Source: Pseudoclavibacter sp. Marseille-Q3772 (GTDB taxonomy: Bacteria > Actinomycetota > Actinomycetes > Actinomycetales > Microbacteriaceae). From it: a stretch of DNA of 64,000 nt. Made by a program: the position numbers and the translations under genes. The stretch lies in the NCBI RefSeq assembly GCF_916618895.1, contig NZ_OU745391.1, positions 1,240,001 through 1,304,000 of the forward strand. Reading direction: 5' to 3'. The notes beneath the pieces were generated by a model. It did not search any database. It had not been told where the DNA came from and saw only the letters and a program-made list of their open reading frames with translations. Below are positions 2,090 to 49,287 of this stretch, piece after piece (position 1 is the stretch's first letter; each line of letters begins with the position of its first letter).

Positions 2090-3001
2090 TTACGGCAGGT
2101 CGAGCTTGCCCGTACTGGGGCGCTCCTCATCGACCGCGGGGATGTCCTCGCGTCGTACCTGCGTTTCCTCGAGCTCTTCTTCGAGCTTCATGAGTTGGCG
2201 AATATCAATCGCCGAGGTCTCGACCAGCGGCTCACCCGCCGCCGCCCACTCGAGGCCGTCAAGCAGCGAGGCGATCGAGCGCTGTTGCGCAACCACATCG
2301 ATCCGCAAACCGAGCGCTCGCGCATCCTTCGTGGTTCGCGGCCCAATCGCCGCGAGCAAGATATCGTCCGGGATCGGCGCGAACTGTTTCATGAGCTGTT
2401 CGGCAACCGACCCGCTGGTGACCAGCGCCGCGCGGATGCGGCTATTGCGCATGTCATAGCGAATCGACTCGGCTGCCGGCACGCCAACGCTGCGATACGC
2501 CGTCACCGAGTCCACCCGATGCCCGCGCCGCCACAATCCACGCGCAAAATCGGGCTGTGAAGCCTCGGAGCGCAACCAAAGCACCTTAATCTTCGGGGCG
2601 CGTCGCGAACACTCCGGCCACTCGACCAGCAATCCCTTCGCCGAGTTGTCGTGTTGCGGTGCGAAATCGACGTGATATCCGGCGGCTGCGAGGGCGGATG
2701 CGGTTGTCTCGCCGGCTGCCACGATGCGGGTTCGCGGCGGGATCGGCACATTCATCGAATGCATGACGTCCACCGCGGTTGCGCTCGTAACCGCCAACCA
2801 GTTGTAGTGACCGTGCGCGAGCCGCTGGAGCGACTCCATCAGTAGCTCCGCATCCTTCGGCGCCGGGCTGGCGAAGTTGATCAGCGGCGCAACAATGGGA
2901 AAAGCTCCGCGAGCGCGAACCACTTCGGCCACATTGTGTCCAAAGGATCCGCCTCGCGGAACCAGAATCTTCCAGCCGCGTAACGGCCCGGCGCTCCTCA
3001 C
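2090..3001 (-). CDS. hemD: Uroporphyrinogen-III synthase (HemD) family protein
   Basis: 303 residues from a GTG at 3001. The opening LRGWKILVPRGG, the central WLAVTSATAVDVM strand-turn and later blocks (RIVAAGETTASALAAAGY, VLWLRSEAS, AALVTSGSVAEQLM) follow the two-lobe alternating fold of uroporphyrinogen-III synthase, which cyclises hydroxymethylbilane in cytoplasmic tetrapyrrole synthesis. The family is poorly conserved, so the call rests on strand order and the TS/G turns rather than catalytic residues. No other haem genes are adjacent; the gene starts 5 bp after the DUF3618 gene stop and is probably cotranscribed with it. A stand-alone HemD-fold protein of other role cannot be excluded. 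Confidence 0.8.
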   Translation of the reverse strand: MRSAGPLRGWKILVPRGGSFGHNVAEVVRARGAFPIVAPLINFASPAPKDAELLMESLQRLAHGHYNWLAVTSATAVDVMHSMNVPIPPRTRIVAAGETTASALAAAGYHVDFAPQHDNSAKGLLVEWPECSRRAPKIKVLWLRSEASQPDFARGLWRRGHRVDSVTAYRSVGVPAAESIRYDMRNSRIRAALVTSGSVAEQLMKQFAPIPDDILLAAIGPRTTKDARALGLRIDVVAQQRSIASLLDGLEWAAAGEPLVETSAIDIRQLMKLEEELEETQVRREDIPAVDEERPSTGKLDLP

Positions 3002-3006
3002 GGTCG

Positions 3007-3294
3007 TTAGCGACGGGTGAGGGTGATCACACCGGCGATGATGCCAGCCAATCCGGCAGCCGCAACACCGAGCAGACCGTAGACCTTCGTTGGGTTCTCT
3101 TCTTTTGCTGCGATGAACTGCTGCTTGCGGTCATCCTTCCACTCGCCGAAGCGAGCGGGAACGTCGAGCTTGTATTCGAGCGCGTTCAGGGTTTCGGCAA
3201 GTTCCCGGCGCGTGGCCTGGATGTCGCGGCGCAACTCGGCGCTGCTGCGCTTCGGTTCCTGCGGCTTGTCGTCCTGCGTAACTGCGTTACTCAT
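3007..3294 (-). CDS. DUF3618 domain-containing membrane protein
   Basis: 95 residues. The first 20 are polar; residues about 17-50 carry the DUF3618 signature, RRDIQATRRELAETLNALE, a short amphipathic helix common in small actinobacterial envelope proteins. A single membrane helix (YGLLGVAAAGLAGIIAGVITL) ends the chain just before TRR, suggesting a tail anchor with the charged helix in the cytoplasm. The start overlaps the preceding holin-like gene by 8 bp, indicating translational coupling. The molecular role of the family is unknown. Confidence 0.85.
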   Translation of the reverse strand: MSNAVTQDDKPQEPKRSSAELRRDIQATRRELAETLNALEYKLDVPARFGEWKDDRKQQFIAAKEENPTKVYGLLGVAAAGLAGIIAGVITLTRR

Positions 3295-3760
3295 AGCGGC
3301 CCATCCCCTTTACTGCGTTGAGGTCCTGACGCACAGACTCCATGGTCTGTTCGGGTTTAATACCCTTCATCTTCTTGAACATGACGATGCCCACGATCGT
3401 TGCGATGATCATCACCAGCAGCAGCGCTCCGGCGACGATCAGGGCCGAGAGCCACGGCGCGAACCACGAGTTCAGGCCGAGAATGGCGAAGGTAATCAGC
3501 ACCGCCCACAGCGTGAGCCCGAAGAACGCAACAACAGCGAACATACCGGCGCCGATACCACCCTTGGTGGCCTTCGCCGTGAGCTCTTGCTTGGCGTGCT
3601 CCATCTCATCCTGAGCGAGCTTGACTGCCAGGCGGGGAACATTCCCCACGAGCTTTGCCAGCGGCAGCCGCGACTTGGGGTTGAACTTACCGAAGCGCAT
3701 CGGCGCCTCAGCGTTGGGGAATGGACCGCGTGCGGGGTCCGGCTTGTCGTAAGCGCTCAC
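3287..3760 (-). CDS. Phage-holin-family / DUF1469-like membrane protein
   Basis: 157 residues. A polar N-terminus of about 45 residues is followed by an amphipathic helix (VKLAQDEMEHAKQELTAKA) and two hydrophobic helices, about 69-95 and 101-127, separated by a short turn. This is the layout of the holin superfamily III / DUF1469 proteins. In actinobacterial chromosomes these genes sit next to DUF3618 and YtxH-like genes, as here, and are housekeeping envelope proteins rather than lysis genes. No phage genes are near. The 3' end overlaps the DUF3618 gene. Confidence 0.85.
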   Translation of the reverse strand: MSAYDKPDPARGPFPNAEAPMRFGKFNPKSRLPLAKLVGNVPRLAVKLAQDEMEHAKQELTAKATKGGIGAGMFAVVAFFGLTLWAVLITFAILGLNSWFAPWLSALIVAGALLLVMIIATIVGIVMFKKMKGIKPEQTMESVRQDLNAVKGMGRYE

Positions 3761-3840
3761 CTAAATTAGTCCCTTCAAAGCTGGTATCGAATCCGGCGTC
3801 CGCGCCCGCATCAGCAGCTGCGGGCAGCGGATGCGGTTGC

Positions 3841-4161
3841 TTAGTTGCTGGTCGAAGCCGGGCTGGTTGCGGTTCCCGATGGTGCGGATGCGTTGCGCTT
3901 GCGCTTGGTCGCGCCCATCACCTGGCTGACCGTGGCCGAGGCGAGCTTGCCGGCACCTTTGAAGGTGCTCTCCACAGCCTTCGGGACGTAGCGGTCAACC
4001 AGACCCTGTGCATTAGCGACCTGCTTCTGCACCGGCTTCGATTCCCATACCTTGGCGGCGTTCTCGGCAATCTGTTCGTACCGTTCACGTCCGGCGCGCG
4101 CACCAAGGACGTATCCCGCTGCTGCGCCAACCAGCAGTGCAAGTTTGTTCGAGGTCTTCAT
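3841..4161 (-). CDS. YtxH-like small membrane protein
   Basis: 106 residues from ATG 4161. This start is preferred over an upstream in-frame ATG because AAGGAAGG lies just ahead of it. An N-terminal glycine-rich membrane helix (LALLVGAAAGYVLGARAG) is followed by a charged amphipathic helix and a Ser/Thr/Ala-rich tail, matching YtxH-type proteins. It is the first gene of a three-gene membrane cluster with the holin-like and DUF3618 genes. Role unknown; general stress proteins of this type are known in Firmicutes. Confidence 0.8.
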   Translation of the reverse strand: MKTSNKLALLVGAAAGYVLGARAGRERYEQIAENAAKVWESKPVQKQVANAQGLVDRYVPKAVESTFKGAGKLASATVSQVMGATKRKRNASAPSGTATSPASTSN

Positions 4162-4250
4162 CTTCTTTCCTTCCTTGGTGGATCGCATCTAGGGTATCGC
4201 CCGAAATACCGAGCAAATCCCGAGATGCCGGTGCGGTTCTCAGGTATCCG

Positions 4251-6221
4251 TTACCAAATCTCAACACGCGCGCTCGGCTCCAACCACAGCGCATCCGCCT
4301 CGGTCACCGAAAATGCGTCATAGAACGGCTGCAGGTTGCGCACGATCTGGTTACACCGGAACTCGGCCGGGCTGTGCGGGTCGACGGCGAGCAGCATCTT
4401 CATGAACTCGGGGCGACGCTGTTCGCGCCAGGCCTCAGCCCACGCCAGGAAGAACCGCTTTGCCGCACTCACCCCATCAATCTCGTGCTTGGGGAGCTGC
4501 TCGGCACCGCCGATGTGGATCAGGTAGGCCTTCCAGGCGATACCCAAGCCGCCCAAATCGCCGATGTTCTCACCGATCGTGAGCTCACCGTTCACCGTCT
4601 CGCCCTCGAGGCCCTGCGGCGTGAGCACACTGTACTGCTCGATCAACGAGCGGGTGTGTGCCTCGAATGCTTGCCGATCCGCATCCGTCCACCAGTCCTG
4701 GAGGCGGCCGTCACCGTCATACTTCGAGCCCTGGTCATCGAACCCGTGACCGATCTCGTGCCCGATCACCGCGCCGATCGCACCATAGTTTGCCGCCGCA
4801 TCCCGCCCCTCGTCGAAGAACGGAAGCTGCAGGATCGCTGCCGGGAAGGCAATCTCGTTCGTCGTGGGCATGTAGTAGGCGTTCACCGTCTGCGGGGTCA
4901 TCAGCCACAGATCCTTGTCGACCGGCTGGCCCACGCGCGCGAAGTGGCGCTCCGACTCGACCGCAGCCGAGCGGTGCGCGTTACCGACGACATCGTCGCG
5001 ATGAATCTCCAGCGCCGAGTAGTCCAGCCACTTCGGCGGGTAGCCGATCTTCGGGTAAAACTTGTCGAGCTTCGCGAGCGCGCGCTGTTTCGTGTCCTCG
5101 CTCATCCACTCGAGCGTGGTAATCGATTCGCGGTACGCGGCCACCAAATCCGCAACCAGCGCATCCATGCTCGCCTTTGCCGCCGGCTTGAAATGCCGCG
5201 CAACATACGCCTCGCCGATCACCTCGCCGAGCATGCCTTCCACATGCCCGATGCCGCGCTTCCACCGTTCGCGCTGCTGCGGCACGCCCGTGAGCACCGT
5301 GCCGAAAAACTCGAAGTTTGCCGCCGAGATTTCTGGGGTCAGCAGCGCTGCGTGTGCGAGCACGATGCGCCACATCAGCCAGTTGCGCCAAGCCGCCAGG
5401 TTCTCTGGGGTGAGGAGCGTGGCCAGGCCGGTGACGAAACTTGGCTCGCACACCACCGGCCGATCGAATACGCCCTCGGGCGCCTGGAGCTGATCGAGCC
5501 ACGCCCGCATCGGCAGCTCACCGAACGGTTCGAGGAACTGTTCGAGCGTCATCGGGTTGTAGGTCAGATCTGCCTCGCGCGACTTGACCACATCCCAGTG
5601 GTGCGCGGCAATCTCGGTTTCGATGCGCAGAATCTGCTCGGCTCGTGCAGCCGGTTCGTCAACGCCGACCAGCTGCAGCATCCGCTCGATATGGGCAACA
5701 AACTGCTCGCGGATCGGCGCGTACTGCTCCTCGCGGTAGTACGACTCGTCCGGCAGGCTCAGGCCCGACTGCGAAACGTACAGGGCGTTGACCTGCGGGT
5801 CGCCCGCATCCGGGCTGACATACATACCGAAGAAACCGCCACCGCCGCGCTGTTCGTGTGCGCCCAGCAGTCGCAAGAAATCGCCCAAGTCTTCGGCGGC
5901 GAGGGCGGATGCGATATCGGCGTCGATCGGGGTGGTGCCAAGCTCGCGCAACCGGTCTTCATCCATGAACGCCGCATACGCATCCTGAGCCTTGCGCAGC
6001 GGCGTGCCCTGTGCGGCCTCGGTTTCGAGGATTTCGCGCACGGCGGTCTCAGCTTCGTCGACGAGGAGGTGGAACGAGCCGTAGCTGCTCTTATCGGCGG
6101 GGATCTCGGTGTTCGCAATCCACGGGCCGTTCACGTGACGGAACAAATCGTCCTGCGGGCGAATCTGTTGATCATACGAGTCGTAATCGAGTCCGGCAGG
6201 CAGTGCGTGTTCAGCAGTCAT
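4251..6221 (-). CDS. M13 family (neprilysin-like) zinc metallopeptidase
   Basis: 656 residues from ATG 6221, which has GGAG five bases upstream; a longer in-frame extension lacks a ribosome site. The gluzincin zinc site HEIGH is at about residues 488-492, followed by GFDDQGSKYD. The NAYYMPTTNEIAFPA substrate strand lies before it and the third zinc ligand, in GENIGDLGGL, follows. The length is normal for the family. No signal peptide is visible, so this member is probably cytoplasmic, cleaving small peptides, as is usual for actinobacterial PepO-like enzymes. It is divergent from the MATE gene with about 110 bp between them. Confidence 0.95.
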   Translation of the reverse strand: MTAEHALPAGLDYDSYDQQIRPQDDLFRHVNGPWIANTEIPADKSSYGSFHLLVDEAETAVREILETEAAQGTPLRKAQDAYAAFMDEDRLRELGTTPIDADIASALAAEDLGDFLRLLGAHEQRGGGGFFGMYVSPDAGDPQVNALYVSQSGLSLPDESYYREEQYAPIREQFVAHIERMLQLVGVDEPAARAEQILRIETEIAAHHWDVVKSREADLTYNPMTLEQFLEPFGELPMRAWLDQLQAPEGVFDRPVVCEPSFVTGLATLLTPENLAAWRNWLMWRIVLAHAALLTPEISAANFEFFGTVLTGVPQQRERWKRGIGHVEGMLGEVIGEAYVARHFKPAAKASMDALVADLVAAYRESITTLEWMSEDTKQRALAKLDKFYPKIGYPPKWLDYSALEIHRDDVVGNAHRSAAVESERHFARVGQPVDKDLWLMTPQTVNAYYMPTTNEIAFPAAILQLPFFDEGRDAAANYGAIGAVIGHEIGHGFDDQGSKYDGDGRLQDWWTDADRQAFEAHTRSLIEQYSVLTPQGLEGETVNGELTIGENIGDLGGLGIAWKAYLIHIGGAEQLPKHEIDGVSAAKRFFLAWAEAWREQRRPEFMKMLLAVDPHSPAEFRCNQIVRNLQPFYDAFSVTEADALWLEPSARVEIW

Positions 6222-24943: not shown

Positions 24944-25010
24944 AGTTTTCTCTGTTACTGAAAACATGCGCAAACTCGCCCGAGGGCGTAGCATGACAGC
25001 AACGAGTACA

Positions 25011-25150
25011 CGTGCTCCGGGGTCGGTGAAATTCCGAGCCGGCGGTTACAGTCCGCGACCCGCGACCGCGCATTCGCAAGAACGCGCAACAGCGGTTGAT
25101 TCGGTGAAACTCCGAAACCGACGGTTACAGTCCGGATGGGAGGCAGCACG
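25011..25150 (+). promoter_or_regulatory. FMN riboswitch (RFN element)
   Basis: The conserved RFN blocks are present in order: GGTCGGTGAAATTCCGAG, GGCGGTTACAGTCCGCGA, GATTCGGTGAAACTCCGA, ACCGACGGTTACAGTC and GGATGGGAGGCAGCACG. The closing P1 stem pairs CGTGCT (25011-25016) with AGCACG (25145-25150). It lies 164 bp upstream of a permease start and so should shut off the riboflavin uptake genes when FMN is high. Confidence 0.95.
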
Positions 25151-25313
25151 CGGTAACCGTAGCCAGCCGCATCCGGGCAACCGGCCGCGTACAGCAGCCT
25201 CACACGCGCCCCTCGCGCCGAGCACGCACCCGCTGGCAGGCACAACGCAACCATGCCCACCGCCGCCGCCTCCCGCATCCCCACCCTCGGGGCCACAACA
25301 GCAGGAGGCCCCC

Positions 25314-37785: not shown

Positions 37786-37983
37786 TTTACGACTTTTCCC
37801 AGGTCGCGCAAGGATTATTTTTGCCGGGTCGCCGGCGGCTTCCGCAGCCGCGTCCGCCCTGCCGCCGCATCCGCCCCGCGCCGCCGCATCCGTGCTCTCA
37901 CCCACCCCCATCCGCGTCCGCCCTCCATCTGCGTTGGGGCCTACTTTGCATACCCCACATCCACCTCACCCTGCTCCCTCCCT

Positions 37984-38327
37984 GCGTTTGGGCCCACTTT
38001 GCACAGTAAGTCGCGGTGCAAGTGTGCGAAGTAGGCCCTAACGCACCCTCGTAACCAGCGTTGTGGCCGACTTTGCACAGTAAGTCGCGGTGCAAGTGTG
38101 CAAAGTAGGCCCAAACGCGGGAGAGGGGGGTGGAAGTGTGCAGAGTCGGCCCAAACGCGGGAGAAGGAAGGGCGGGCGCGCGGGGCGTGGATGCGGGGTG
38201 AAGGTGTGCGATGCGGGGGTGAAGGTGCGGAGGTTTGCGATGTGGGCCTGAACGTGGGTGTTGTTTCTCGGTTTGGGCCGACTTTGCACGGTAATTCGGG
38301 TTGGAAGTGTGCAAAGTGGGCCCAAAC
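37984..38327. repeat. Family A inverted repeats, cluster 1 (three full units)
   Basis: Full units at 37986-38042, 38060-38116 and 38271-38327, each exactly 57 bp from GTTNGGG to its complement. Arms read like GTTTGGGCCGACTTTGCAC and its complement, around a conserved centre resembling AGTAATTCGGGTTGCAAG. Single arms lie at about 37932, 38137 and 38236. The cluster fills the 726 bp gap between clpB and the transglycosylase gene; no gene is seen there. Confidence 0.9.
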
Positions 38328-38444: not shown

Positions 38445-39341
38445 CTAACTCGCGTAGCGCGTGGCCGCATCCGACACCCGCGCCACATACTCCACCGGCA
38501 CGTTGTACGCATGCACTGCAGCGAGCCAGTTCTCCGGAACCGTCAAATCGCCGCCAACAGCGCACAGGTACGCAGCCGCAGAGAGCGCGGCGTCGTCAAT
38601 GTGCTGCGGATCGCGCACACCGTCGCCGTTGCCGTCCTCGCCGTACTCAGCCCAGGTCTGCGGGGTGAACTGCATCGGCCCAACCGCCCGGTCAAGCTCT
38701 GCATCCCCATCCAATGCCCCACCGTCGGTGTCGCCAATGTGGTCGACCCCGTCACCATCAAGCGGTACACCGACGAGCTCCGGCTCTACCCGCCCGCCGG
38801 CAGTGATCTTCCCGCCACGAAGCGTGCCGTGCGCCGATTCGACCTCGCCGATCCCCGCGAGCGTATTCCAGCCGAGCCCGCACGACGGGAACCGTTGCTC
38901 AATGGCAAGCGCAGCGCCCGCGTATGCCCGCAGCGCTCGCTCCGGAATGTCGAAGCGAGCGGCAGTTTCGTGCACCCAAGAAGCGTCGGGGAGGGATGCG
39001 ATCCGCAAGCCGGCAGCGTCCGTTTCGGCGGGGTGCGGCGAGGGATCCGGTCCTGGTTCCGCCAGCTCGGGTCGCTCCGCAGCGCTGGGTGCATTGAGCG
39101 CCGCGTCCTGCGCAGCGCCGCCCGAAGCGGGCCAACGTAGTATGCCTGTGGCCGCCATGCCGCCAACGATCATGGCGATCAGTCCGCACACCGCGAGCGC
39201 GATCAGCAACACCGGTGGGCGGCCAGGCGGCCGGTGGTGCTCCTCCGCGACCAACGGCGCATCATCCGGGGAGGAACCGCCAAACTTGCCGCTGTCCGCT
39301 GGTGCCGTCTCACCGCTCACAATCAGCGGTTCTTCACTCAT
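38445..39341 (-). CDS. Lytic murein transglycosylase, membrane-anchored
   Basis: 298 residues from ATG 39341. One membrane helix (VLLIALAVCGLIAMIVGGMA) lies near residue 45-65, then an Ala/Pro linker and a soluble-lytic-transglycosylase-like domain. The catalytic glutamate is in TLAGIGEVESAHG, and the fold continues with ELDRAVGPMQFTPQTWAEYG and HIDDAALSAAAYLCAVGGDL. It cleaves peptidoglycan glycan strands from the outer side of the membrane. It stands alone between two repeat-filled gaps. Confidence 0.9.
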   Translation of the reverse strand: MSEEPLIVSGETAPADSGKFGGSSPDDAPLVAEEHHRPPGRPPVLLIALAVCGLIAMIVGGMAATGILRWPASGGAAQDAALNAPSAAERPELAEPGPDPSPHPAETDAAGLRIASLPDASWVHETAARFDIPERALRAYAGAALAIEQRFPSCGLGWNTLAGIGEVESAHGTLRGGKITAGGRVEPELVGVPLDGDGVDHIGDTDGGALDGDAELDRAVGPMQFTPQTWAEYGEDGNGDGVRDPQHIDDAALSAAAYLCAVGGDLTVPENWLAAVHAYNVPVEYVARVSDAATRYAS

Positions 39342-39565
39342 ACACACCACCTAGCGCCACCCCGCCAGCGCGAACCGGCCACGCCAGCACCATCCGGCCG
39401 CACCAGCGCGAACGAACGAGACCAGTGCGCCTCGCGAACCGGCCCCACCGCGCAAACGGGCCGCACCAGCGCGAAAACCAGCCCCGCCAGCGCGAACCCA
39501 GCACCGAACTCAACCAGCGCAAACCAGCCCGACCAGCACCAAAAACCCAGCACCAACCACCAACA
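39342..39565. repeat. Degenerate CCAGCGCGAACC-type short repeats
   Basis: The 224 bp gap holds about ten imperfect copies of a CACCAGCGCGAACC-like string in one orientation, at irregular spacing. No gene or hairpin with a U-tract is evident. It separates the transglycosylase from the surface protein of the metal-transport island. Confidence 0.6.
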
Positions 39566-41995
39566 TCAACGCGAACCGGCCACATCAGCGCCGCCCTCAG
39601 CCGCTGCCGCGAGCGCCCCCATCCGACGCACATACCACCACGCGACACCGGCGATTCCGCCGACGAACGCGGTCGCGCCGCCACCGATCAGCGCACCGAC
39701 AAGAACCGGATCCATCTCGTCTCGGCGAGCGTCCGCCTCGACGGGTGCATCCGCATCCGCACCGCTACCCACATAGGTGACGCCCTGCTCGGTTTGCTTG
39801 CGTTTCTTGTCGGCTTCGGCCTTCGCCTGCTCGGCCGCCTGCGCCTCGGCCTTGGTGACATCGTCGCGCACATCGCGGGATGCGGCGGCCGCCTCGGCCG
39901 AGACGCTCACGCCGCAGAAGGCATCGCCGAGCGGCACATCGCCAACCTGGAATACGTAGGTGTGTGCTGCGGTGTCGACCGATTTTCCGGTGCTCGGGTT
40001 CGTGGCGGTTGCCGACACGTTGAGCTTGTAGATACCGGGTTTCGAGAACACCCACTGGGCGTGTACGTGCGCGGGTTTGGGCACGTGGATGGTGCCGGAC
40101 AGCTGGGTGCTTCCGCCATCGAGCAGCGGACTGACGCTGCCGAAGTTGGCGACCGTGTACAGGTGCACGGCGCCCGGTCCGTCGACCGAGTTCACGTTGA
40201 TGCGCACATCGGTGTATCCGCTGGTCGTGGTTGCGTTGGTGTCCCAGCCCGGCCAGATCAGCTGCGGGTTTTGCGTCACTGGCAGCACGAATCCGCGCGG
40301 GGCACCCGGGTAGCCGCCGGGAACGTCGATCTCGGCCTCGGGCTTCACCCGCAGCAGGACGTCCTCGGCCTCGTGCAGCACATGCGATCCGGTGACATCT
40401 TCTTTGAGTTGGAGCACGGCGCCGCGCGATGAGGCGGACACGTTAAAGGCGTCAATGTGTCCGGCGTCGAACACGTGGCTCGGCTCGCAGGTTGCGGTTG
40501 CGTCGGCTTTCGGGGGCGCGGAAGGCTTCGAACCGGATCCGCCGGCACCACCAGAACCACCAGCACCACCGGAACCGCCGCCAGGGCGCACGACACTTTC
40601 ACCGGGAGCAGCGCTCACGCGCACACGATCCCAGCCGACAACCTTGCCGTCCTGGCGGCGAATCGAAAGCTTCGCGTCTCCCGGTTTGCCCGGCGCGGTC
40701 ACCGTGAGGTGCCCATCAAACGAAACCTGCTGCCATCCGGCCCAGCTCGCCCCCGCATCCGTATGCCACCATGCCGATACCCAGGTGCCGGCAAGGGACG
40801 CATCAGTAACCTCGGCAACCATCGCACTGCCCGCACGAACCGGCGATTTCGGCGCGCGCACGGTCTTCCCCGCGGCAGTGGCGTTCAGTTCGGATGCGGT
40901 GGGTGCTTTGGCGTCGTCGTGGTCGGGGCGTTCGGCCACCTTACCGTTCACGGTGATCGGCAACGCATTGCGTTCGGCAATCGCAACGCTTGCGAATTCA
41001 TCGTTGTAGGTGGGCACGAACCGGGCGATGATGCGGTGTTGCCCTGGCGCGAGCCCGCGGGTTTCGAGGGTCGCAACGCCGTTGTTCACCGGGGCGTGGC
41101 CGAGGATCGCACCGGTGGTGAGGTCGACAAACTCGACGGCACCGCGAGCGCCGCGAGGGGTCATCTGCGCGGTGAGCCCCAGCGGTTTGCCGGCGTCGAT
41201 GGTGCCGGTGCTGGCGCTGAAGTTCATTGTGGTGCGTTCGGTGAGCGCGTCAAAGGCGCCCACGTGGAACGAGTATCGCTGTTCGTCAGTGACGGTCTTA
41301 CCGCCGATGACCGTGCTGCCGCGGAACGTGAGCTCATACCGGCCCGGTTTCGAGAACGCCCAGAACGCGTGGGTGTGCTGGCGCATCCCCATGGTCCATG
41401 CCGGCAGTTTGTCACTGGATGAGAACAGTCGGTTGTAGCTACCGAATCCGCCCGAGTTGAAGATTTCGACCCGGCCCGGTCCCTGCACGTCGGTTAGCTG
41501 TAGCGAGACTTTGCCGTTGTCGGATGCGGCCACGAGCGCTTCGTTTTCGGTGCTGAATCCCGGCCACAGCAAATCCTGCTGTTGCACCTCGGGCGCAACC
41601 CACGCATCCGGCCCGAACGACTGCAGGAACGGCACGTTCTTCGGGGTGGCGATCTTCGATTTGGTACCCAGGTGGAACACGGTGCGGTCGGTGTCAATGC
41701 GCTGGCCGGCGACGCCGTCGAGGTCAGCTTTCGAACCGAGTACGAACTTGCCGTCGTCCACGAAGGAGGACACCGCATCACTGTGGCCAGAGGTGAGCAC
41801 CGTGCGTTTGATGGTCTGCGGTGCCGGTTCGTTGAGTTTTCCGGATGCGGCGTGTGCGGCGCTCGGGATACCGGTGGTCAGCAGCGCAATCGCGCAGATC
41901 GCGGCCAGTACAGAGGCGAGCAGACGCTGCGTGTGCCGAGGCGCCCGGCTGTTTCGGCGGATGCGCGCGTGGTGATCGTACCGGATGCTGGTCAT
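39566..41995 (-). CDS. Transporter-associated surface protein with two TIGR03769-like domains (TIGR03773-like)
   Basis: 809 residues from ATG 41995; the start overlaps the permease stop as ATGA. A twin-arginine-like basic leader and hydrophobic signal end at SAAHA (about 48). The first surface domain spans about 64-255 (VLTSGHSDAV ... HTHAFWAFSKPGRYELTF). An Ig-like middle, a Gly/Ser hinge (about 480-500) and a second surface domain (about 505-705; VFDAGHIDAFNVS ... HVHAQWVFSKPGIYKLNV) follow. A charged coiled stretch and a C-terminal membrane helix (VLVGALIGGGATAFVGGIAG) close it. Both domains keep the Asp/His-rich corners. It is presumably displayed on the cell surface to support the linked metal importer. 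Confidence 0.88.
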   Translation of the reverse strand: MTSIRYDHHARIRRNSRAPRHTQRLLASVLAAICAIALLTTGIPSAAHAASGKLNEPAPQTIKRTVLTSGHSDAVSSFVDDGKFVLGSKADLDGVAGQRIDTDRTVFHLGTKSKIATPKNVPFLQSFGPDAWVAPEVQQQDLLWPGFSTENEALVAASDNGKVSLQLTDVQGPGRVEIFNSGGFGSYNRLFSSSDKLPAWTMGMRQHTHAFWAFSKPGRYELTFRGSTVIGGKTVTDEQRYSFHVGAFDALTERTTMNFSASTGTIDAGKPLGLTAQMTPRGARGAVEFVDLTTGAILGHAPVNNGVATLETRGLAPGQHRIIARFVPTYNDEFASVAIAERNALPITVNGKVAERPDHDDAKAPTASELNATAAGKTVRAPKSPVRAGSAMVAEVTDASLAGTWVSAWWHTDAGASWAGWQQVSFDGHLTVTAPGKPGDAKLSIRRQDGKVVGWDRVRVSAAPGESVVRPGGGSGGAGGSGGAGGSGSKPSAPPKADATATCEPSHVFDAGHIDAFNVSASSRGAVLQLKEDVTGSHVLHEAEDVLLRVKPEAEIDVPGGYPGAPRGFVLPVTQNPQLIWPGWDTNATTTSGYTDVRINVNSVDGPGAVHLYTVANFGSVSPLLDGGSTQLSGTIHVPKPAHVHAQWVFSKPGIYKLNVSATATNPSTGKSVDTAAHTYVFQVGDVPLGDAFCGVSVSAEAAAASRDVRDDVTKAEAQAAEQAKAEADKKRKQTEQGVTYVGSGADADAPVEADARRDEMDPVLVGALIGGGATAFVGGIAGVAWWYVRRMGALAAAAEGGADVAGSR

Positions 41996-42903
41996 GCGGA
42001 TACCTCCGAGGGAACAGTTGCGAGCAGGGCTTCGTCTTCGGGTTGGATGCGGCCGGCACGCCAGCGTGCGATCGCACCGTGGCGGGGTGCGAAGACCCAG
42101 GCGAGCACGAAAACGGCGGTGGCGACGAGCACGATGGTGCCGCCGGTGGGCAGGTCGAGCGACCAGGACAGGTAGAGCCCGATGAGTGCGCTGAGCCCGC
42201 CGATGGTCGGGGCGATCAGCATCATTCGGCCGAGCGAGTCGGTGAGTAGTCGTGCGGCGGCAGCAGGCGTAACCAGGAGCGCGAGCACCAGCACATTTCC
42301 GATGGTTTGTACTGAGATCACCACGGCTACGGCCACGGACACGTACAGCACCAGGTCGAGGGCCATCACCGGTAGCCCGCTGGCGCGAGCCATTTCTCGG
42401 TCGAGGGTGGCGGCGACGAGTTCTTTGTGGAGGGCGAACAGTACGAGCATCAGGATGAGGCCGGTGACGATCACGGTGATGAGGTCTTCTTCGCGGATCC
42501 CGACGATCGTGCCGAAGAGGAATTGTTGGAGTGAGCCGGCATATCCCGGCGAGAAACTGATAACCACAATGCCGAGTGCGAATGCGCCGACAAAGAACAC
42601 ACCGATCACACCGTCTTCTTTCAGGCGACGGTTCTGGGAAAGCAAGGCGATTAGCACGGCAGTGACCACACCGGCGATGGCACCGCCGAGCACCAGGTTG
42701 CCCTGGATCACGAACGCGATCGCAAGCCCCGGAAACACTGCGTGCGCCACCGCATCCCCAATAAAGGCCATACCGCGCAGCACCACATAGGTGCCGATCA
42801 CGCCGCACACCACGGCGGAGCACATGGCGATGATGAGCGCTTTGCCGAGGAATGCGAGATCGGGGTTCAGCAGATCGTGGATGAAATCGATCGGGGAGAT
42901 CAC
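41992..42903 (-). CDS. Anchored-repeat-type ABC transporter permease (ABC-3, ZnuB/MntB-like)
   Basis: 303 residues. Eight to nine membrane helices are visible. ABC-3 features include LRGMAFIGDAVAHAVFPG near the N-terminus, and the cytoplasmic coupling region LLTDSLGRMMLIAPTIG. This family moves zinc or manganese. It overlaps the ATPase gene by 4 bp upstream and the surface-protein gene by 4 bp downstream, so the three are translationally coupled. Confidence 0.93.
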   Translation of the reverse strand: MISPIDFIHDLLNPDLAFLGKALIIAMCSAVVCGVIGTYVVLRGMAFIGDAVAHAVFPGLAIAFVIQGNLVLGGAIAGVVTAVLIALLSQNRRLKEDGVIGVFFVGAFALGIVVISFSPGYAGSLQQFLFGTIVGIREEDLITVIVTGLILMLVLFALHKELVAATLDREMARASGLPVMALDLVLYVSVAVAVVISVQTIGNVLVLALLVTPAAAARLLTDSLGRMMLIAPTIGGLSALIGLYLSWSLDLPTGGTIVLVATAVFVLAWVFAPRHGAIARWRAGRIQPEDEALLATVPSEVSA

Positions 42904-43766
42904 GACAGCACCGTCCGTTCTGATTCGATCCCGCTGGTGTTGGTTGCGTGCGGGGTGGGTTGGGCGGTTGTTGGATGCGGCGTGGCGGCTGTTTGCGTTG
43001 TGACCGCTGGCGCGTCCTGATGCGGCGCGGCGTCGGCTTCGCGGTCGATGCCGAGCGCGTGCAGCAGCGGGTTATTGCGGGTGATCGCGAAGGTGCGCAT
43101 CCACAATTCAGGGTCGTGCAGGGATGCGGGGGTACCGTCAGCAATCACCGTGCGGTTGAGGAGGCATAGCCGATCGCAGATGTGCATGGCGCCGGCCAAA
43201 TCGTGCGTGGTCATCAGCACCGCCTGCCCCTCGCGGGCGAGCGAGCGAAACAGTTCGCTCAACAGCTCCTGAGTTGGCATATCCAATCCGGTGAACGGCT
43301 CGTCCAGCAGCAGCACTTCCGGTTCGAGCGCGAGTGCGCGCGCAACGAGTACGCGCTGGCGCTGACCGCCGGAGAGCTCGCCAACGGGCCGTCGCGCGAG
43401 ATGGCTCATGCCGACGCGATCCAATGCGCTGGCGGCGAGCTCGAAATCCCGCTGCCCCGGCCGGCGCAACCACCCCACACGCTTCGCGCGGGCGTTGAGC
43501 ACCGCATCCTCAACCGAAATCGGAAAATCCCACACGAACTCGTGCCGCTGCGGCACATATCCGGGCCGGCCTCCGCGGCAGGTCGTTCGACCGGATTCGG
43601 GATGCACCAGCCCGAGCGCCGTGCGCAGCAGGGTGGTTTTACCGGCACCGTTCGGGCCGATGAGTCCCACCAGCTCGCCCGACCGAACGCTCAGGTCGAC
43701 TTGCTGCAGTACTCGTCGGCCGCCCAATTGGACGGTGAGTGATTCCAGTTGCAGGGCTGCGGTCAT
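42900..43766 (-). CDS. Anchored-repeat-type ABC transporter ATP-binding protein (ZnuC/MntA-like)
   Basis: 288 residues. Walker A GPNGAGKT at 37-44, signature LSGGQ at 131-135, Walker B LLLDEP at 152-157, and the H-loop in VLMTTHDLAG. The best family fit is cluster-9 metal importers. The C-terminal 55 residues after HALGIDREAD are a Thr/Ala/Pro-rich tail with several His, not part of the nucleotide-binding fold. Overlaps both neighbours by 4 bp. Confidence 0.94.
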   Translation of the reverse strand: MTAALQLESLTVQLGGRRVLQQVDLSVRSGELVGLIGPNGAGKTTLLRTALGLVHPESGRTTCRGGRPGYVPQRHEFVWDFPISVEDAVLNARAKRVGWLRRPGQRDFELAASALDRVGMSHLARRPVGELSGGQRQRVLVARALALEPEVLLLDEPFTGLDMPTQELLSELFRSLAREGQAVLMTTHDLAGAMHICDRLCLLNRTVIADGTPASLHDPELWMRTFAITRNNPLLHALGIDREADAAPHQDAPAVTTQTAATPHPTTAQPTPHATNTSGIESERTVLS

Positions 43767-44959
43767 CGGGCGGCTCCGGATGCGGTCTCGTCGGTTGCGT
43801 CGGGGGTTTCGTCGGTTGCGTCTGCAGTTTCGCGTGGGTTGTCGGGCGTTTCACCTGCCGCGTCGGTAGCGGCCTTGTCGCCTGCGGCACCGTCTGCAGC
43901 CGCCTCGGTAGCGGCGCTACCCTGCTCACTCGCGGCACCGGCCGAGGAAGCCTGGGCTGCGCGCACTCGCCGCTTCATCGCCGCGTTCGCGTTCACCATC
44001 ACCACTACGGCGATCAGCAGCACCACGCCAACACCGGCAATGATCCACCACACGAAACTCGGGATACCGCCCTCATCTCCAGCCGCATCCTCACCAGCAG
44101 CATCTTGACCAGCAGCATCTTGACCAGCAGCATCCTGACCGTTCGCACCCGCGGGAGCCCCCGCATCCGCCCCCTGCTCGAGCGGCGCCGCAGCAAACGC
44201 CTCTTCCGGATCGGTCGCATCCCCGACCGAGAAACGAAGCGTGTCGGATGCGCTCACATGCGTGCCATCGCGCAGATCAGCCTCGAACTGCAGCTGCACG
44301 CGGTAGGTGCCGGGTTTGCTGAACACCCAGTTGGCGTGCGTGTGCGTATTCAACTCAATCCACGTGGACTGCGGCAGCGCCTCGCGTGTGGTGTACAGCA
44401 CCTCCGGAGCGCCGAAGTTACCGCTCTGCAGGTACACGTTCAGGTCGCCCGGGCCGTCGAATGCGGTGATCGACATGGTGACGCCGAGGTCAACCTGGTC
44501 AAGCACCATCGGTTCCTGCGTGTTCCAACCGGTCCAGATCACATCCTGCTTCTGCGTCTGCGGGACCACATACATTTCGGTGCCGGGCTCGGCGCCGAGG
44601 AACGAATAGTTGCTGTCATCGGGGACGGCAAGTTTCGCCTTATCGTTGACCTTGATCGCCACATCCTTCGGCATGCGCCAGAACCGGGGGATGCTGGTGT
44701 CGTCGTGGATCTGCACGGTCCACTCGCCGGTGCTCAGCGTGGGACCGATGTCGATGTGACCCGCGTCAAGTACGACCCGGTCGGTCGCCTGCTGCTGGTT
44801 GGGGTCGATGACCTGGTTCAGCCCGCCGTTGTTGTCGCCCGTAGGCGGTTCGGTTTCGGCATGCGCTGCCACGGGGAACGCGGTCGGCAGGAGCAGCCCG
44901 AGCGTGGCGGCGGCGATTGCGGCCGTGGCGCGGGTGAGCTGTGGGACGAGGAAGCGCAC
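43763..44959 (-). CDS. Choice-of-anchor M domain protein, single TIGR03769-like domain
   Basis: 398 residues from a GTG at 44959 with AAAGGA upstream. Signal peptide ends near VAAHAETEP. The surface domain (about 55-245) shows VVLDAGHIDIGP, FLGAEPGTEMYVVPQ, FDGPGDLNVYLQ and NTHTHANWVFSKPGTYRVQL. A spacer containing GQDAA repeats follows, then a membrane helix (FVWWIIAGVGVVLLIAVVVM, about 300-322) and a charged Thr/Glu/Asp cytoplasmic tail. It is membrane-anchored outside the cell, coupled by ATGA overlap to the ATPase gene. Confidence 0.9.
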   Translation of the reverse strand: MRFLVPQLTRATAAIAAATLGLLLPTAFPVAAHAETEPPTGDNNGGLNQVIDPNQQQATDRVVLDAGHIDIGPTLSTGEWTVQIHDDTSIPRFWRMPKDVAIKVNDKAKLAVPDDSNYSFLGAEPGTEMYVVPQTQKQDVIWTGWNTQEPMVLDQVDLGVTMSITAFDGPGDLNVYLQSGNFGAPEVLYTTREALPQSTWIELNTHTHANWVFSKPGTYRVQLQFEADLRDGTHVSASDTLRFSVGDATDPEEAFAAAPLEQGADAGAPAGANGQDAAGQDAAGQDAAGEDAAGDEGGIPSFVWWIIAGVGVVLLIAVVVMVNANAAMKRRVRAAQASSAGAASEQGSAATEAAADGAAGDKAATDAAGETPDNPRETADATDETPDATDETASGAAR

Positions 44960-44996
44960 GGTGGTGTCCTTTCGGGGCGTGGCTTGGGGGTTGTTC

Positions 44997-45016
44997 GTTT
45001 GGTTTGGTTTGGTTTG
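44997..45016. repeat. Pentanucleotide repeat (GTTTG)4
   Basis: Four perfect copies of GTTTG in the 88 bp gap between the binding-protein stop and the next start in the transport cluster. It is outside coding sequence. Confidence 0.7.
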
Positions 45017-45047
45017 TGGCTTGGGTTTCGCGAGCGGATGCGAGCGG

Positions 45048-46613
45048 CTAGTCGGGCTTATCGCCCAGGCATTCGCGCATCGAATTCGCGTTAAACCGCA
45101 TCAACTCGACGTAGCTGTGCACCTCCGGTGTGAACGAGTCACTCAGCAGCTCACACACGCGGATGCCTTCGGTTTCGGCGATATCGGTGAGCACGTTGGA
45201 GCGCACCGCCAGGTTTGGTTCGAGGAACACTGCCGGGACCTTCAGGTTCCGGATGGTTTCGGTCAAGCGACGGCGGTCGGCAAGGCTCGCCTCCACGGCC
45301 GGGTTCGGGGATACGAAGCCGGACACCTTCACGTCATAGGCCTCGGCAAAGTAGCCAAATGAGTCGTGCGTGGTGATCAGCGTTCGACGCGACTTGGGGA
45401 TCTGGTCAATGGTCTGACGCACCTGCGCGTCAACCGCATCCAACTCGTTCAAATAGGCATTGGCGTTGCGGGTATATTCGGCCGCATTGCTCGGATCAAG
45501 CTCGATGAGCTGGTCGCGGATGATCTGCACATACGCCTTGGCATTGTGCACATCGTGCCAAAGGTGCGGGTCGATCTCGCCGTGGACGTGCTTGCCGAGT
45601 ACCGCCTGCGCGAGCTGATACACCTGTTCGCCCGGGTTGCCGAGGAATCGGTAGCTGGGGTCCGGCGGAATCTCGTGGAGCGCGGTGTTCGGGATGTTGA
45701 TCACCACATCCTCGAGCGGATAGTAGTCGCGACCCGCTTTGTCGGCGCGAGCCGCCGCATCCCGATCGTGCAAAACATGCAATTTGTGCTCGTGCAGGTC
45801 GACCGTGAGGTCGGCGTGACCGGAATCCAGCACGGTGGCCTGCTCGTATCCGGGCACCGAATGGGGGTCGACACCCACCGCGAAGACCACCGAACCGCTG
45901 GCAATGTCGGTGGGTTCGGATGCGCCGGGCTCGCGTAGGCGCGCGCTGAGGTCGAGTCGGTACACGCCCGGTTTGCTGAACGCCCAACTCAGGTGCGTAT
46001 GAGCATCCGGCGGCAGCGAAACCGTGTCTTCGACGTCGCCGCGCAGTCCGTCGCTCGAATTGAAGTACTGCTCGATATCGCCGAAGCTGCCGGTGAGATA
46101 GGCGTGCAGCGTGCCGGGGCCGGACATGCCGGTGGCGCTCAGCTCGACGCTTGCCGAGCGCGCCACATCCGCCTGCGCGCCGCCCTCGGCGCGGAACCCT
46201 AACCAGACCGTGTCCAGCGATGCATCCTCAACGAGCGGGATGATGTTGGCCGCGTACTTGACGGCTTCTTCAGCGAGGGCAATATTGGCGGAGCTCTTTG
46301 GCAGGTTGGCGTCGATCGCGGCGATCAAGCGCTGCTCTTCGAGCATGAGGTAGTTGGTGAACGCGGCGTCGGCGTAGACGATATCGCGCACATTGCGCAA
46401 GCTCGGCTCGTACGAGTGCGGGTCGCCGCCCTCCGGGACGAGCGAGGAGACCACCACATGCTCTCCCCCGACGTGCTCGACGAAGTCGGCGATGATTCCG
46501 GTGGTGGTGACCACGCGGATGCGGCCGTCGTCGGTGCTTGGCAGTGCCTGCTGGGTGCATCCAGCCAGGAGCAGCGCCGAACATACGGTCGCAAGCAAAC
46601 GGAATCGGGACAC
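45048..46613 (-). CDS. Metal ABC transporter binding lipoprotein with inserted surface-anchor repeat (TIGR03772-like)
   Basis: 521 residues from a GTG at 46613. Lipobox LLLAGC, lipid Cys at 19. It begins as a cluster-9 (ZnuA/MntC) binding protein: VVTTTGIIADFVEHVGG with metal His66 in GGDPHSYEPS. From about 132 to 335 the fold is interrupted by surface-domain sequence: first a C-terminal half (SGPGTLHAYLTGSFG, HTHLSWAFSKPGVYRLDL), then an N-terminal half (VLDSGHADLT, YRFLGNPGEQVYQLA). The ZnuA fold resumes at GKHVHGEIDPHLWHD (His342/344) and supplies His416 in THDSFGYF. It should bind Zn or Mn outside the membrane. Confidence 0.9.
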   Translation of the reverse strand: MSRFRLLATVCSALLLAGCTQQALPSTDDGRIRVVTTTGIIADFVEHVGGEHVVVSSLVPEGGDPHSYEPSLRNVRDIVYADAAFTNYLMLEEQRLIAAIDANLPKSSANIALAEEAVKYAANIIPLVEDASLDTVWLGFRAEGGAQADVARSASVELSATGMSGPGTLHAYLTGSFGDIEQYFNSSDGLRGDVEDTVSLPPDAHTHLSWAFSKPGVYRLDLSARLREPGASEPTDIASGSVVFAVGVDPHSVPGYEQATVLDSGHADLTVDLHEHKLHVLHDRDAAARADKAGRDYYPLEDVVINIPNTALHEIPPDPSYRFLGNPGEQVYQLAQAVLGKHVHGEIDPHLWHDVHNAKAYVQIIRDQLIELDPSNAAEYTRNANAYLNELDAVDAQVRQTIDQIPKSRRTLITTHDSFGYFAEAYDVKVSGFVSPNPAVEASLADRRRLTETIRNLKVPAVFLEPNLAVRSNVLTDIAETEGIRVCELLSDSFTPEVHSYVELMRFNANSMRECLGDKPD

Positions 46614-46654
46614 GATGCGCTTTCTGTTGAGTCGTTGGTTTTTGGTTTCTTTAA

Positions 46655-46750
46655 TTAGCCACCCAGGCGTCTCTTCAATCAGCCACCCAGGCCTCGCTCC
46701 AATCAGCCACCCGGGCCTCTCTCTAATCAGCCACCCAGGCGTTCGGGCCC
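46655..46750. repeat. Four tandem 24 bp repeats upstream of the binding-protein gene
   Basis: Units start at 46655, 46679, 46703 and 46727; each contains YAGCCACCCAGGC. Read on the minus strand the frame of the downstream gene would give P-G-W-L-I repeats. The last unit merges with a family A repeat. The unit length keeps frame, but a signal peptide starting at 46613 makes translation of this part unlikely. Confidence 0.75.
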
Positions 46751-46912
46751 ACTTTGCACACTTACAACCCGGGTTACTGTGCAAACCAGGCCCCAACCCT
46801 GCTCACACCTCCACGTTCGGGCCCGCTTCGCACACCTCACGCCCCTCCATCCGCGTTGGGGCCCACATCGCACACTTCCTCCGCATCCAAGTAGCCAATG
46901 TGGGCCTCAACG
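46741..46912. repeat. Family A inverted repeat, cluster 2 (one full unit plus remnants)
   Basis: Full 57 bp unit at 46741-46797 in reverse orientation to cluster 1 (arm GTTCGGGCCCACTTTGCACA). Degenerate arms continue to 46912, including GTTGGGGCCCACATCGCACA near 46855. It lies in the 369 bp gap between two genes of the transport cluster, where no gene is seen. Confidence 0.85.
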
Positions 46913-46982
46913 GTGGTCGCACTGTTGCAGCGGATAGGGTGAGCACAAGCAAGGCAACGGCAGTCAGGCTCCTCGAGTCGGG

Positions 46983-48428
46983 TTAGTGACGCGCACGGCG
47001 AGTGAGCGTGGCCGCACCGACGAGCGCGAGCAACGCAGCAACAGACGCGATACCAAGGAACTGGTCAATCTCGGCACCGGTCTCGGCAAGCTGCGACTTA
47101 CCGTTGTTGCTGCCCGACGCTTGCGACTGCCCGGATTTCTGCGCGCCCTGACCAGCCGGATCGTTTGCGGCCGGGTTATCTGCGGCCGGATCGTTAGCAG
47201 CCGCGTTGTTGTCGTCAGGGCGCTGCTCGGCGCCGATCGCGCCCGGACCCGAGCCGTCATTCGAGCCGGCGTTATCGGCGTCATCGGATGCAGCTGAAGC
47301 CGACGGGCCGTTACCAGAGGGCATTGTTTCGGTAGGGGTGGATGCGGTCGGTGTCGGCGTTTCCGTCGGCTCCGGTGACTGAGTTGGTTTGGATGTTTCA
47401 GTAGGTTTCGGCGTCTCCGTCGGTTCCGGAGCTTCAGTCGGTTCCGGAGTTTCAGTCGGTTCCGGAGTTTCAGTCGGCTTCGGAGTTTCGGCATTAATCG
47501 TGACTTCCTCGGAAGCTACACGCAGCGCTTCGTTCGTGGCGTAGTCCTTGCCGCCGATGGTGACCGCACGGTACCGCTCACCGTCAACTGCTGGAACCGT
47601 CAAGGTTTCGGAATTCGCATCCGCAACCTGTTGCCATCCACCGTTCTCGTACTTCTCCCACGTGAGTGTGTTGAACAGGGTCTCGCCCTCGGCAGCGCTA
47701 GCCGTGAGCGTGACTTCACTTCCAGGAGCTACCGCATCCTCGCCGCCGGACACCGCCACAGTGGTCGGAGCTGGTTTCACAGTGAACGTGTACTTGGCAG
47801 TGTTCGATGTTTGCTTGGCGGAACCGTCGGCTTTGCTGGCAGTTGCCTGCACAGTCATTGTGTAAGTGCCGGGTTCGGTGAATGCCCAGTTTGCGTGCAC
47901 GTGAGCTGCAAGATCCTGGTGAATGGTGTTGGGCAACTTAAAGCCGCCGTCCTTAAGCAATGACTGCGGGCCGCCGAAAGTTCCCTGTGACCACACATAG
48001 ACCTCACCCGGGCCATCCACAGCTTGAACATTGATGCCAGCTTTGAGATCGCTGCCAAACACCTCCTGCGCCTGCAGGCTGTCCCAGCCTGGCCACAGCA
48101 GAGACTGATCTTGCGTTATCGGCAGGAAGTAGAAGTTGCCAGGAACACCATCTGGCGTGGCGCCTTTGGGCACATTGTTGGCAATCGAATGGTTCGCAAC
48201 CACGAGCTCAACATCTTCGGGAGCGTGGGCGACGTGACTGCCAGTGACGTCTTCTTTGAGGTTGAGGACCAATTTGCCGCCGTTGACAGCGAGGTTGAAC
48301 GCGTCAACGTGGCCCTTGTCAAGCTGTACCTTGTCCGCAGCGTTGGCCGGATTGGCGCCGATGAGGGATGCGGCGGCCACCAGCAGCGAGGCAACCGTCC
48401 CGCCAAGGGGGCGAAGGAGTGATGCCAT
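46983..48428 (-). CDS. Cell-wall-anchored choice-of-anchor M protein with LAETG sorting signal
   Basis: 481 residues from ATG 48428, with AAAGG upstream. Signal peptide ends at NPANA (about 30). One TIGR03769-like domain (about 32-225): VQLDKGHVDAFNL, NFYFLPITQDQSLLWPGWD, HVHANWAFTEPGTYTMTV. An Ig-like stretch and a [13 protein letters not shown] spacer follow. The sorting signal is LAETG at 447-451 with hydrophobic helix and RRARH tail. It is the first gene of the transport cluster, downstream of a Zur-like dyad, and the only member covalently attached to the wall. Confidence 0.9.
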   Translation of the reverse strand: MASLLRPLGGTVASLLVAAASLIGANPANAADKVQLDKGHVDAFNLAVNGGKLVLNLKEDVTGSHVAHAPEDVELVVANHSIANNVPKGATPDGVPGNFYFLPITQDQSLLWPGWDSLQAQEVFGSDLKAGINVQAVDGPGEVYVWSQGTFGGPQSLLKDGGFKLPNTIHQDLAAHVHANWAFTEPGTYTMTVQATASKADGSAKQTSNTAKYTFTVKPAPTTVAVSGGEDAVAPGSEVTLTASAAEGETLFNTLTWEKYENGGWQQVADANSETLTVPAVDGERYRAVTIGGKDYATNEALRVASEEVTINAETPKPTETPEPTETPEPTEAPEPTETPKPTETSKPTQSPEPTETPTPTASTPTETMPSGNGPSASAASDDADNAGSNDGSGPGAIGAEQRPDDNNAAANDPAADNPAANDPAGQGAQKSGQSQASGSNNGKSQLAETGAEIDQFLGIASVAALLALVGAATLTRRARH

Positions 48429-48591
48429 CGACGTGAACCTTTCTTCGGGCAGGGCCCGGTAGGTCCGGGGATGGGGGTGGTGCCTCGCCTCGTCAAAGTC
48501 GCTCCGTGTCACAGTGACGGCGCTTGTACGCACGTCGCACAGACGCTGCAGCGCTCTGGCGCTCGCTTCGCGATCACCACATCCCATTCCC

Positions 48592-48610
48592 GGTAATGGG
48601 AATGATTACC
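48592..48610. promoter_or_regulatory. Zur-box-like dyad upstream of the metal-transport island
   Basis: GGTAAT, seven bases, ATTACC: a perfect 6 bp inverted repeat with the core TGGGAATGATTACC. Ten of 15 bases match the actinobacterial Zur operator TGAAAATGATTTTCA. It lies 164 bp upstream of the first gene of the cluster. A different metal regulator could also use it. Confidence 0.5.
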
Positions 48611-48895
48611 GTTAGAGTACATGAGGTGTGGGGCGCGCCGCATCCTGCGTTCGGGCTTGCGCCCCTGGCCTACGTTCCGAGTGAAGTGCCAACTCGCGCT
48701 GCCGCCTGGGTACCCGCTTGCACACCCGGCGGACATCCCGCCCACGCACGCCCCCACGCGCTTCACGCCTCACCCACTTGACCGCTACCCGGCGGCACTG
48801 CCCCGAATGAGTGCCCACTCGCGCTGCCTCCTGGGGCGCTCCTCGTGCACCCTCGCCTGCACACACCGGCACCTTCACACACCGCCACCTCCCCT

Positions 48896-49287
48896 GCGTT
48901 GAGGCCCAATTTGGCTACTTGGAGGCAGGCAAAGGCACCAAAGTGGGCCCCAACGCAGCCTCGCAAACAACGTTGGGGCCGACTTTGCACAGTAGTTCGG
49001 GTTGCAAGTGTGCGAAGTAGGCCCCAACACGGATTGGAGGGAGGGGATGGGAGAGGGATGGGATGAGGGACACGAGGTATGCAAAGTGGGCCCGAACGTG
49101 GAGGTGTGAGCAGGGTTGGGGCCTGGTTTGCACAGTAGTTCGGGTTGTAAGTGTGCGAAGTAGGCCCCAACGCGGATGAGAGGCGGAGTCGGGGAGCGGA
49201 TGAGAGGCGGAGTCGGGGAGCGGATGAGAGACACGGAGTGTGCAAAGTGGGCCCCAACGCTGAATGATGATCAGCGTTGGGGCCCAC
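48896..49287. repeat. Family A inverted repeats, cluster 3 (three full units)
   Basis: Units at 48898-48954 (variant A2 arms TTTGGCTACTTGG / GGCACCAAAGT), 48972-49028 and 49115-49171, each 57 bp. Single arms at about 49079, 49238 and 49274. A 24 bp tandem repeat (CGGATGAGAGGCGGAGTC...) runs 49173-49220 with a partial third copy. It occupies the 932 bp gap before putP; the other part (48611-48895) shows no recognised gene. Confidence 0.9.

Follow-up and report, generated by a model that had tools for sequence, protein, structure and literature searches.

With a probability of roughly 0.6, a six-gene island of Pseudoclavibacter sp. Marseille-Q3772 encodes a Znu-type system that imports zinc with high affinity, in which extracellular M domains would catch zinc and hand it to the substrate-binding protein (SBP) of an ATP-binding cassette (ABC) system for uptake. 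The island lies in a 64,000-nucleotide stretch of contig NZ_OU745391.1 (positions 1,240,001 to 1,304,000), hereafter the window; the host genome is 2.01 Mb in one contig. We found that the SBP itself contains an M domain and that this copy is a circular permutation, opened at a different loop and re-joined. The genes, domain content, permutation, insertion site, regulatory box and co-occurrence were obtained here by computation, and zinc was assigned from published work on a homologue.

All six genes are on the minus strand, from 48428 down to 39566, and are transcribed in the order wall protein G, SBP A, membrane protein E, ATPase C, permease B and two-domain protein F:

46983..48428, minus strand: ZnuG-like wall protein G, with a signal peptide, one M domain (47778-48323) and an LAETG sorting signal
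46614..46982, no strand: G-to-SBP intergenic gap of 369 bp, containing a REP-like repeat
45048..46613, minus strand: ZnuA-like binding lipoprotein A (the SBP), TIGR03772 685.9 bits
45606..46214, minus strand: insert in the SBP, a circularly permuted M domain at the D-loop position, with HxH ahead of GHxD
43763..44959, minus strand: ZnuE-like membrane protein E, with one M domain (44225-44773)
42900..43766, minus strand: ATP-binding subunit C, TIGR03771 335.8 bits (cut-off 268.8)
41992..42903, minus strand: permease B, TIGR03770 424.5 bits (cut-off 296.8), Pfam ABC-3
39566..41995, minus strand: ZnuF-like protein F, with M domains at 41261-41800 and 39944-40471

Gene starts were picked by eye from signal peptides and overlaps. 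Because stops and starts overlap at 43763-43766, 42900-42903 and 41992-41995, the E, C, B and F genes look translationally coupled, with A close before them (an 88-bp spacer separates A from E). The original prediction of a six-gene metal-importer island holds for gene set and coupling. Of the span it gave, 39566..48610, the 39566 end stands, whereas 48610 is where an in-frame upstream extension begins, and the likely start is 48428.

The same domain occurs on every outside protein, as had been predicted. NF038134 (choice-of-anchor M, cut-off 55 bits) matches G with 151.5, E with 192.1, F with 270.4 (two stretches) and the SBP with 93.0 bits (two stretches), and the TIGR03769 match falls within the NF038134 match. 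By these two profiles there are five M domains in the island: one each in G, E and the SBP, and two in F. Of their carriers, G ends in SQLAETG, a hydrophobic stretch and RRARH; the SBP has the lipobox LLAGC with its Cys at 46559; E has a single hydrophobic segment and a charged tail, as judged by eye; and F has an immunoglobulin (Ig)-like Big_3_5 domain between its two M domains and a C-terminal hydrophobic segment, with no sortase motif seen in it by eye. Across 75 aligned canonical copies, H12, D14, W86, G88, H150, H152, F157, G161 and Y163 are invariant, and the HxD/HxH motif described by Peng et al. is among them. For the E domain, AlphaFold predicts a beta-sandwich with a predicted local distance difference test score (pLDDT) of 96.5, and the searches made returned no close solved relative. 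Genome-wide, NF038134 gives eight matches, six of them in the island (the SBP counting as two pieces) and the others as two copies in a single CmrA-like frame, and it gives none in 14 control genomes. The CmrA-like protein is encoded on the minus strand far from the island (L052 about 2350-4910; G000:C1:1674349 to about 1676908) and has two M domains, ending in a sortase-like LATTG.

The lipoprotein does contain the domain that the original prediction placed there, but not in canonical form. In the window SBP, NF038134 profile positions 67-169 precede positions 1-73. A profile of 84 canonical domains from the window and 30 named loci was rotated at 17 points along its columns and matched against 31 SBPs, one per locus. 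The summed best single matches were 1926 for the unrotated profile and reached a maximum of 2668 with the cut at residue 73, and the rotated profile was better in 30 of the 31 SBPs. For the window SBP, the two pieces found without rotation (70.2 and 27.3 bits) become one continuous match of 97.5 bits. Neither form of the profile matches two plain SBPs encoded in this genome (best -0.2 bits). HxH stands ahead of GHxD in every one of the 31 SBPs, and the His and Asp residues of the motif, in rotated order, are invariant in the insert (64/64). Among the rows listed, the pattern of second half first and then 1-73/75, within one frame, also appears in six further genomes (G026, G059, G079, G123, G124 and G163). 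The SBP inserts form one clade with a support of 0.999 in a tree that used 28 of the 31. The canonical domains nearest to them in that tree are the single M domains of small proteins from one Streptomyces species (L024:5886-6629 and L038:5833-6537); a Zur-type box lies at the start of each.

The structural model agrees with this arrangement. The SBP model has a mean pLDDT of 83.4, with the insert mostly at 78-97 per ten-residue block and at 63-72 over residues 261-280, and 17 of the 18 listed elements of the canonical domain recur in it, in the order 85-189 and then 6-76. By alignment, the insert occupies the position of the zinc-acceptor D-loop of AztC, just before DPHxW (here DPHLW). By analogy, the likely metal ligands of the SBP are H48, H332, H398 and D474 of the mature protein, which are invariant in 64 aligned sequences. 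The literature searched, which covers few subscription journals, yielded no earlier description of a permuted acceptor domain. The permuted M domain at the acceptor-loop position is the novel part of this system; zinc as the ligand of such systems was already known from the homologue.

A second permutation is found in related wall proteins, in a late domain whose HxH half precedes its GHxD half, at nine loci (L028 and L030-L037; ten frames with L033 counted twice, for example L034:7463-10852). The window lacks such a domain. In all ten frames, rotating the profile at residue 126 raises the score from 82-94 to 140-148 bits, and a mostly low-complexity linker lies ahead of the domain. This points to a beta-sandwich domain that has been circularly permuted in nature in two different ways.

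Profile scores add the island to the "anchored repeat" ABC system (TIGR03769-TIGR03773) as a new member. The ABC cut-offs are exceeded for TIGR03772 (685.9 against 350.45 bits), TIGR03771 (335.8 against 268.8) and TIGR03770 (424.5 against 296.8), and TIGR03773, the associated surface protein, is exceeded by F (261.1) and E (192.1 against 190.3). G reaches only 113 bits with TIGR03773 and is placed instead by NF038134 (151.5 against 55) and TIGR03769 (58 against 30.9). All components of the Znu-type gene set of Corynebacterium diphtheriae (A, E, C, B, F and G, with HxD/HxH domains) are present. The SBP scores 69 bits with the canonical ZnuA model PRK09545 (cut-off 268), and the curated Azt models score below their cut-offs (AztC 193.1 against 350, AztB 220.8 against 280 and AztA 187.1 against 220 bits). 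General scans of eight proteins named no AztD, and no search was aimed at AztD at the locus or genome-wide.

To analyze the distribution of the system, we used a class sample of 345 genomes, including that of the organism itself, and a phylum sample of 396 genomes. NF038134 exceeds its cut-off in 24 of the 345 and TIGR03772 in 23, all among those 24. Surface genes that are widespread without the ABC genes, which had been named as speaking against the prediction, were therefore not what we found: the SBP accompanies the domain in 23 of 24 class genomes. In the phylum sample the domain exceeds the cut-off in four genomes, three of which (G000, G026 and G123) were already counted and have the SBP. 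The two genomes with the domain and no SBP over the cut-off are G154, where the M domain is split over two frames, and G551. In G551, which belongs to another class, the domain lies near the end of a 697-amino-acid protein (L054:6269-8362) with a propeller-like N-terminal part and a sortase-like gene close by, both judged by eye. By domain position, the order A-E-C-B is kept in 29 of 31 loci, the window included, and the other two (L028 and L029) are short fragments. Most loci have an M-domain gene upstream of A; the gene after B is of the F type in the window, L009-L013, L015-L020 and L023, and not in L026. Among named genomes, the nearest SBP loci are those of [Zimmermannella] bifida (L009, 81%) and then Gulosibacter sp. 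10 (L010, 69%), which makes a Gulosibacter-like actinomycete the most likely host.

A candidate regulatory site precedes the island:

48594..48614, no strand: Zur-type 21-bp palindrome TAATGGGAATGATTACCGTTA, matching 8 of 10 half-site positions

The box was first spotted by eye and afterwards scored against a matrix derived from published Zur sites, by which it is the top site of the window (21.5 bits, the next being 13.5); searches with its exact pattern would be circular and carry no weight here. At an 18-bit threshold, boxes occur close to where an M-domain frame begins in 27 of 31 loci, compared with 0 of 155 shuffles made with a first-order Markov model; the interval allowed runs from -400 to +350 bp around the beginning of any stop-to-stop frame that matches the M domain, including the frames of SBPs. 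The loci without one are L023 and L031 (box elsewhere), L028 (a 4.3-kb fragment) and L034. It is this recurrence, together with its position, that gives the box its weight. The window holds no match to the strict Zur core TGAAAATNATTTTCA with three or fewer mismatches, and among the best sites listed none above about 6 bits falls in the 369-bp gap between G and the SBP gene. Elsewhere in the genome, the CmrA-like gene has a Zur-type box just upstream (L052:4915, 20.7 bits), and the site ahead of the canonical znuA scores 13.2 bits, not above background; a Fur-family gene adjoins the canonical importer genes. Zur sites were predicted earlier for such clusters (PMC2823685, PMC3022926), and dip0438-0444 of C. 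diphtheriae is repressed by zinc and Zur (PMC6711530). Judged from these sites, the island is probably under Zur control.

We then propose a mechanistic model for zinc uptake by the island. Zinc would be caught outside the cell by the M domains of G, F and E, with His-x-Asp near one end and His-x-His near the other, and handed to lipoprotein A. Since the insert sits at the D-loop position, the loop by which AztC accepts zinc, the likely last extracellular step is that an M domain of E, F or G passes zinc on, domain to domain, to the permuted copy in A. From the permuted domain zinc would enter the His3-Asp cleft of the SBP and be imported by permease B, powered by ATPase C. The M proteins most likely take the place of the chaperone AztD, and we infer the order and directness of the transfer as well as entry through the insert. 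How metals pass through the thick Gram-positive wall to a membrane importer is poorly understood. It is tempting to speculate that they do so by a homotypic relay, a chain of the same domain with like-with-like contacts, in which the domain has been opened at two loops and a permuted copy has replaced the acceptor loop of the SBP; we regard this broader idea as tentative, at somewhat below even odds. If the permuted D-loop domain is the acceptor, the question could be addressed simply by comparing transfer in vitro in the presence and absence of the insert, and the reversed ZnuA motif of the C. diphtheriae study would be accounted for.

Several observations weigh against the proposed model. 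The rotated profile loses in one SBP (L035) and wins by less than 2 bits in two others (L031 and L036). Low-confidence stretches of the SBP model (109-114, 269-274 and 320-328) include both insert junctions, so that the modelled pose of the insert over the cleft is tentative, and zinc binding by the permuted domain is putative. One of 60 window shuffles reached 21.47 bits, close to the 21.48 of the box, which alone is therefore about a 1-in-60 event window-wide, and sequence alone does not distinguish a Zur box from the boxes of other Fur-family regulators. Deletion of the AztC D-loop causes only a minor growth defect in vivo. In C. diphtheriae (PMC12445094), ZnuE with its motif His residues changed to Ala (3xAla) still shifts with zinc, so that the motif is not proven to be the zinc-binding site; deletion of znuA has only a modest effect; and deletion of znuF or znuG has none while the transporter is present. 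The wall-to-permease relay of the original prediction is plausible, being compatible with the permuted copy at the acceptor loop, but fits these knock-outs only partly.

The same work reports that without the transporter ZnuF and ZnuG depress growth, which also fits plain sequestration. In one alternative, G and F would store or sink zinc on the wall, and E, alone or with the SBP, would feed the permease by release and diffusion, with no directed relay. Dispensable with the transporter and growth-limiting without it, F and G have been suggested by those authors to act in sequestration or storage, and the several M-domain copies of F and CmrA-type proteins look store-like. A store, however, needs neither a same-domain copy in the acceptor loop of the SBP nor near-complete co-occurrence with the SBP, and we consider this alternative unlikely. 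The M domains might instead self-associate to place the SBP beside E at the permease, with zinc binding confined to E and the SBP cleft. Such docking would suit a canonical beta-sandwich of common, adhesin-like arrangement, as well as the C. diphtheriae data, in which E is needed and A nearly dispensable; the invariance of the motif His and Asp residues in the insert (64/64) goes beyond what docking alone demands and makes this improbable. Finally, transport of a different metal, or of a metal chelate, by the island of this organism is very improbable: members of cluster A-I bind Zn, Mn or Fe and the closest solved relative by sequence is a manganese protein, which we also count against our model, but the homologue is controlled by zinc and Zur (PMC6711530), the zinc-specific AztC comes first among tied folds with the highest identity, and another operon of the genome, made up of an SBP, an ATPase and two permeases next to a gene that is DtxR-like by eye, is a better manganese candidate. 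We thus retain zinc catch by M domains and hand-over to the SBP as the preferred model.

Other features of the window were also recorded. Directly downstream of the island, an SLT-type lytic transglycosylase-like protein is encoded at 38445-39350 (minus strand). A hairpin of about 60 nt resembling repetitive extragenic palindromic (REP) elements (GTTGGGGCCyACTTyGCACA ... TGTGCAAAGTCGGCCCCAAC) flanks the island and also sits between the G and SBP genes (37937-38310, 46745 and 49011-49241); across the genome its pattern is matched 61 times, with about a dozen clusters of matches, compared with 9 times for the reversed pattern. A flavin mononucleotide (FMN) riboswitch lies at 25008-25153 on the plus strand (89.8 bits). 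Scans of the island for promoters (2 sites, 1.4 in shuffles) and terminators (2 sites, 7.5 in shuffles) were not used.

The closest known system is the C. diphtheriae Znu system (znuAECB-znuFG; troA/dip0438-0443), which shares the six protein types, the A-E-C-B-F order and the M-domain motifs in A, E, F and G. A 2025 study found that it handles zinc, that loss of ZnuE impairs low-zinc growth, that ZnuE, ZnuF and ZnuG undergo zinc-induced thermal shifts in vitro, and that the motif His residues of ZnuE matter in vivo (PMC12445094). Because this work points to zinc, the earlier statement that the ligand of these systems is not established is out of date, and the proposal of metal binding through His/Asp corners gains support. 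The authors noted the reversed motif in ZnuA; "permut-", "His-rich" and "relay" are absent from their text. The island differs in having G upstream, with the only strong Zur-type box, and in the added Ig-like domain of F; no counterpart of dip0444/0445 was recognised adjoining it, no genome-wide search for one having been made.

AztABCD of Paracoccus is also similar. AztC, which binds zinc specifically, heads the tied structural matches to the SBP, and its D-loop is needed for receiving zinc from the chaperone AztD; the ATPase and the permease of the island give high scores with AztA and AztB, yet below the curated cut-offs. In place of AztD, the island has M-domain proteins. Among streptococcal proteins, AdcA resembles the island SBP in that a zinc-binding domain is joined to an SBP, and the AdcA and Pht domains presumably differ from the M domain; the island domain is inserted and permuted rather than fused to an end. 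The Pht proteins are likewise surface zinc proteins, proposed to feed an SBP. The same genome also encodes a canonical zinc importer (L050:2452-6700), in which consecutive genes specify a ZnuA-like SBP, an ATPase, two permeases and a Fur-family protein (L050:6278-6700). Both importers combine an SBP of the cluster A-I type with an ATPase and permease, and where the island SBP carries its M domain, the SBP of the canonical importer has a very long His/Asp-rich loop.
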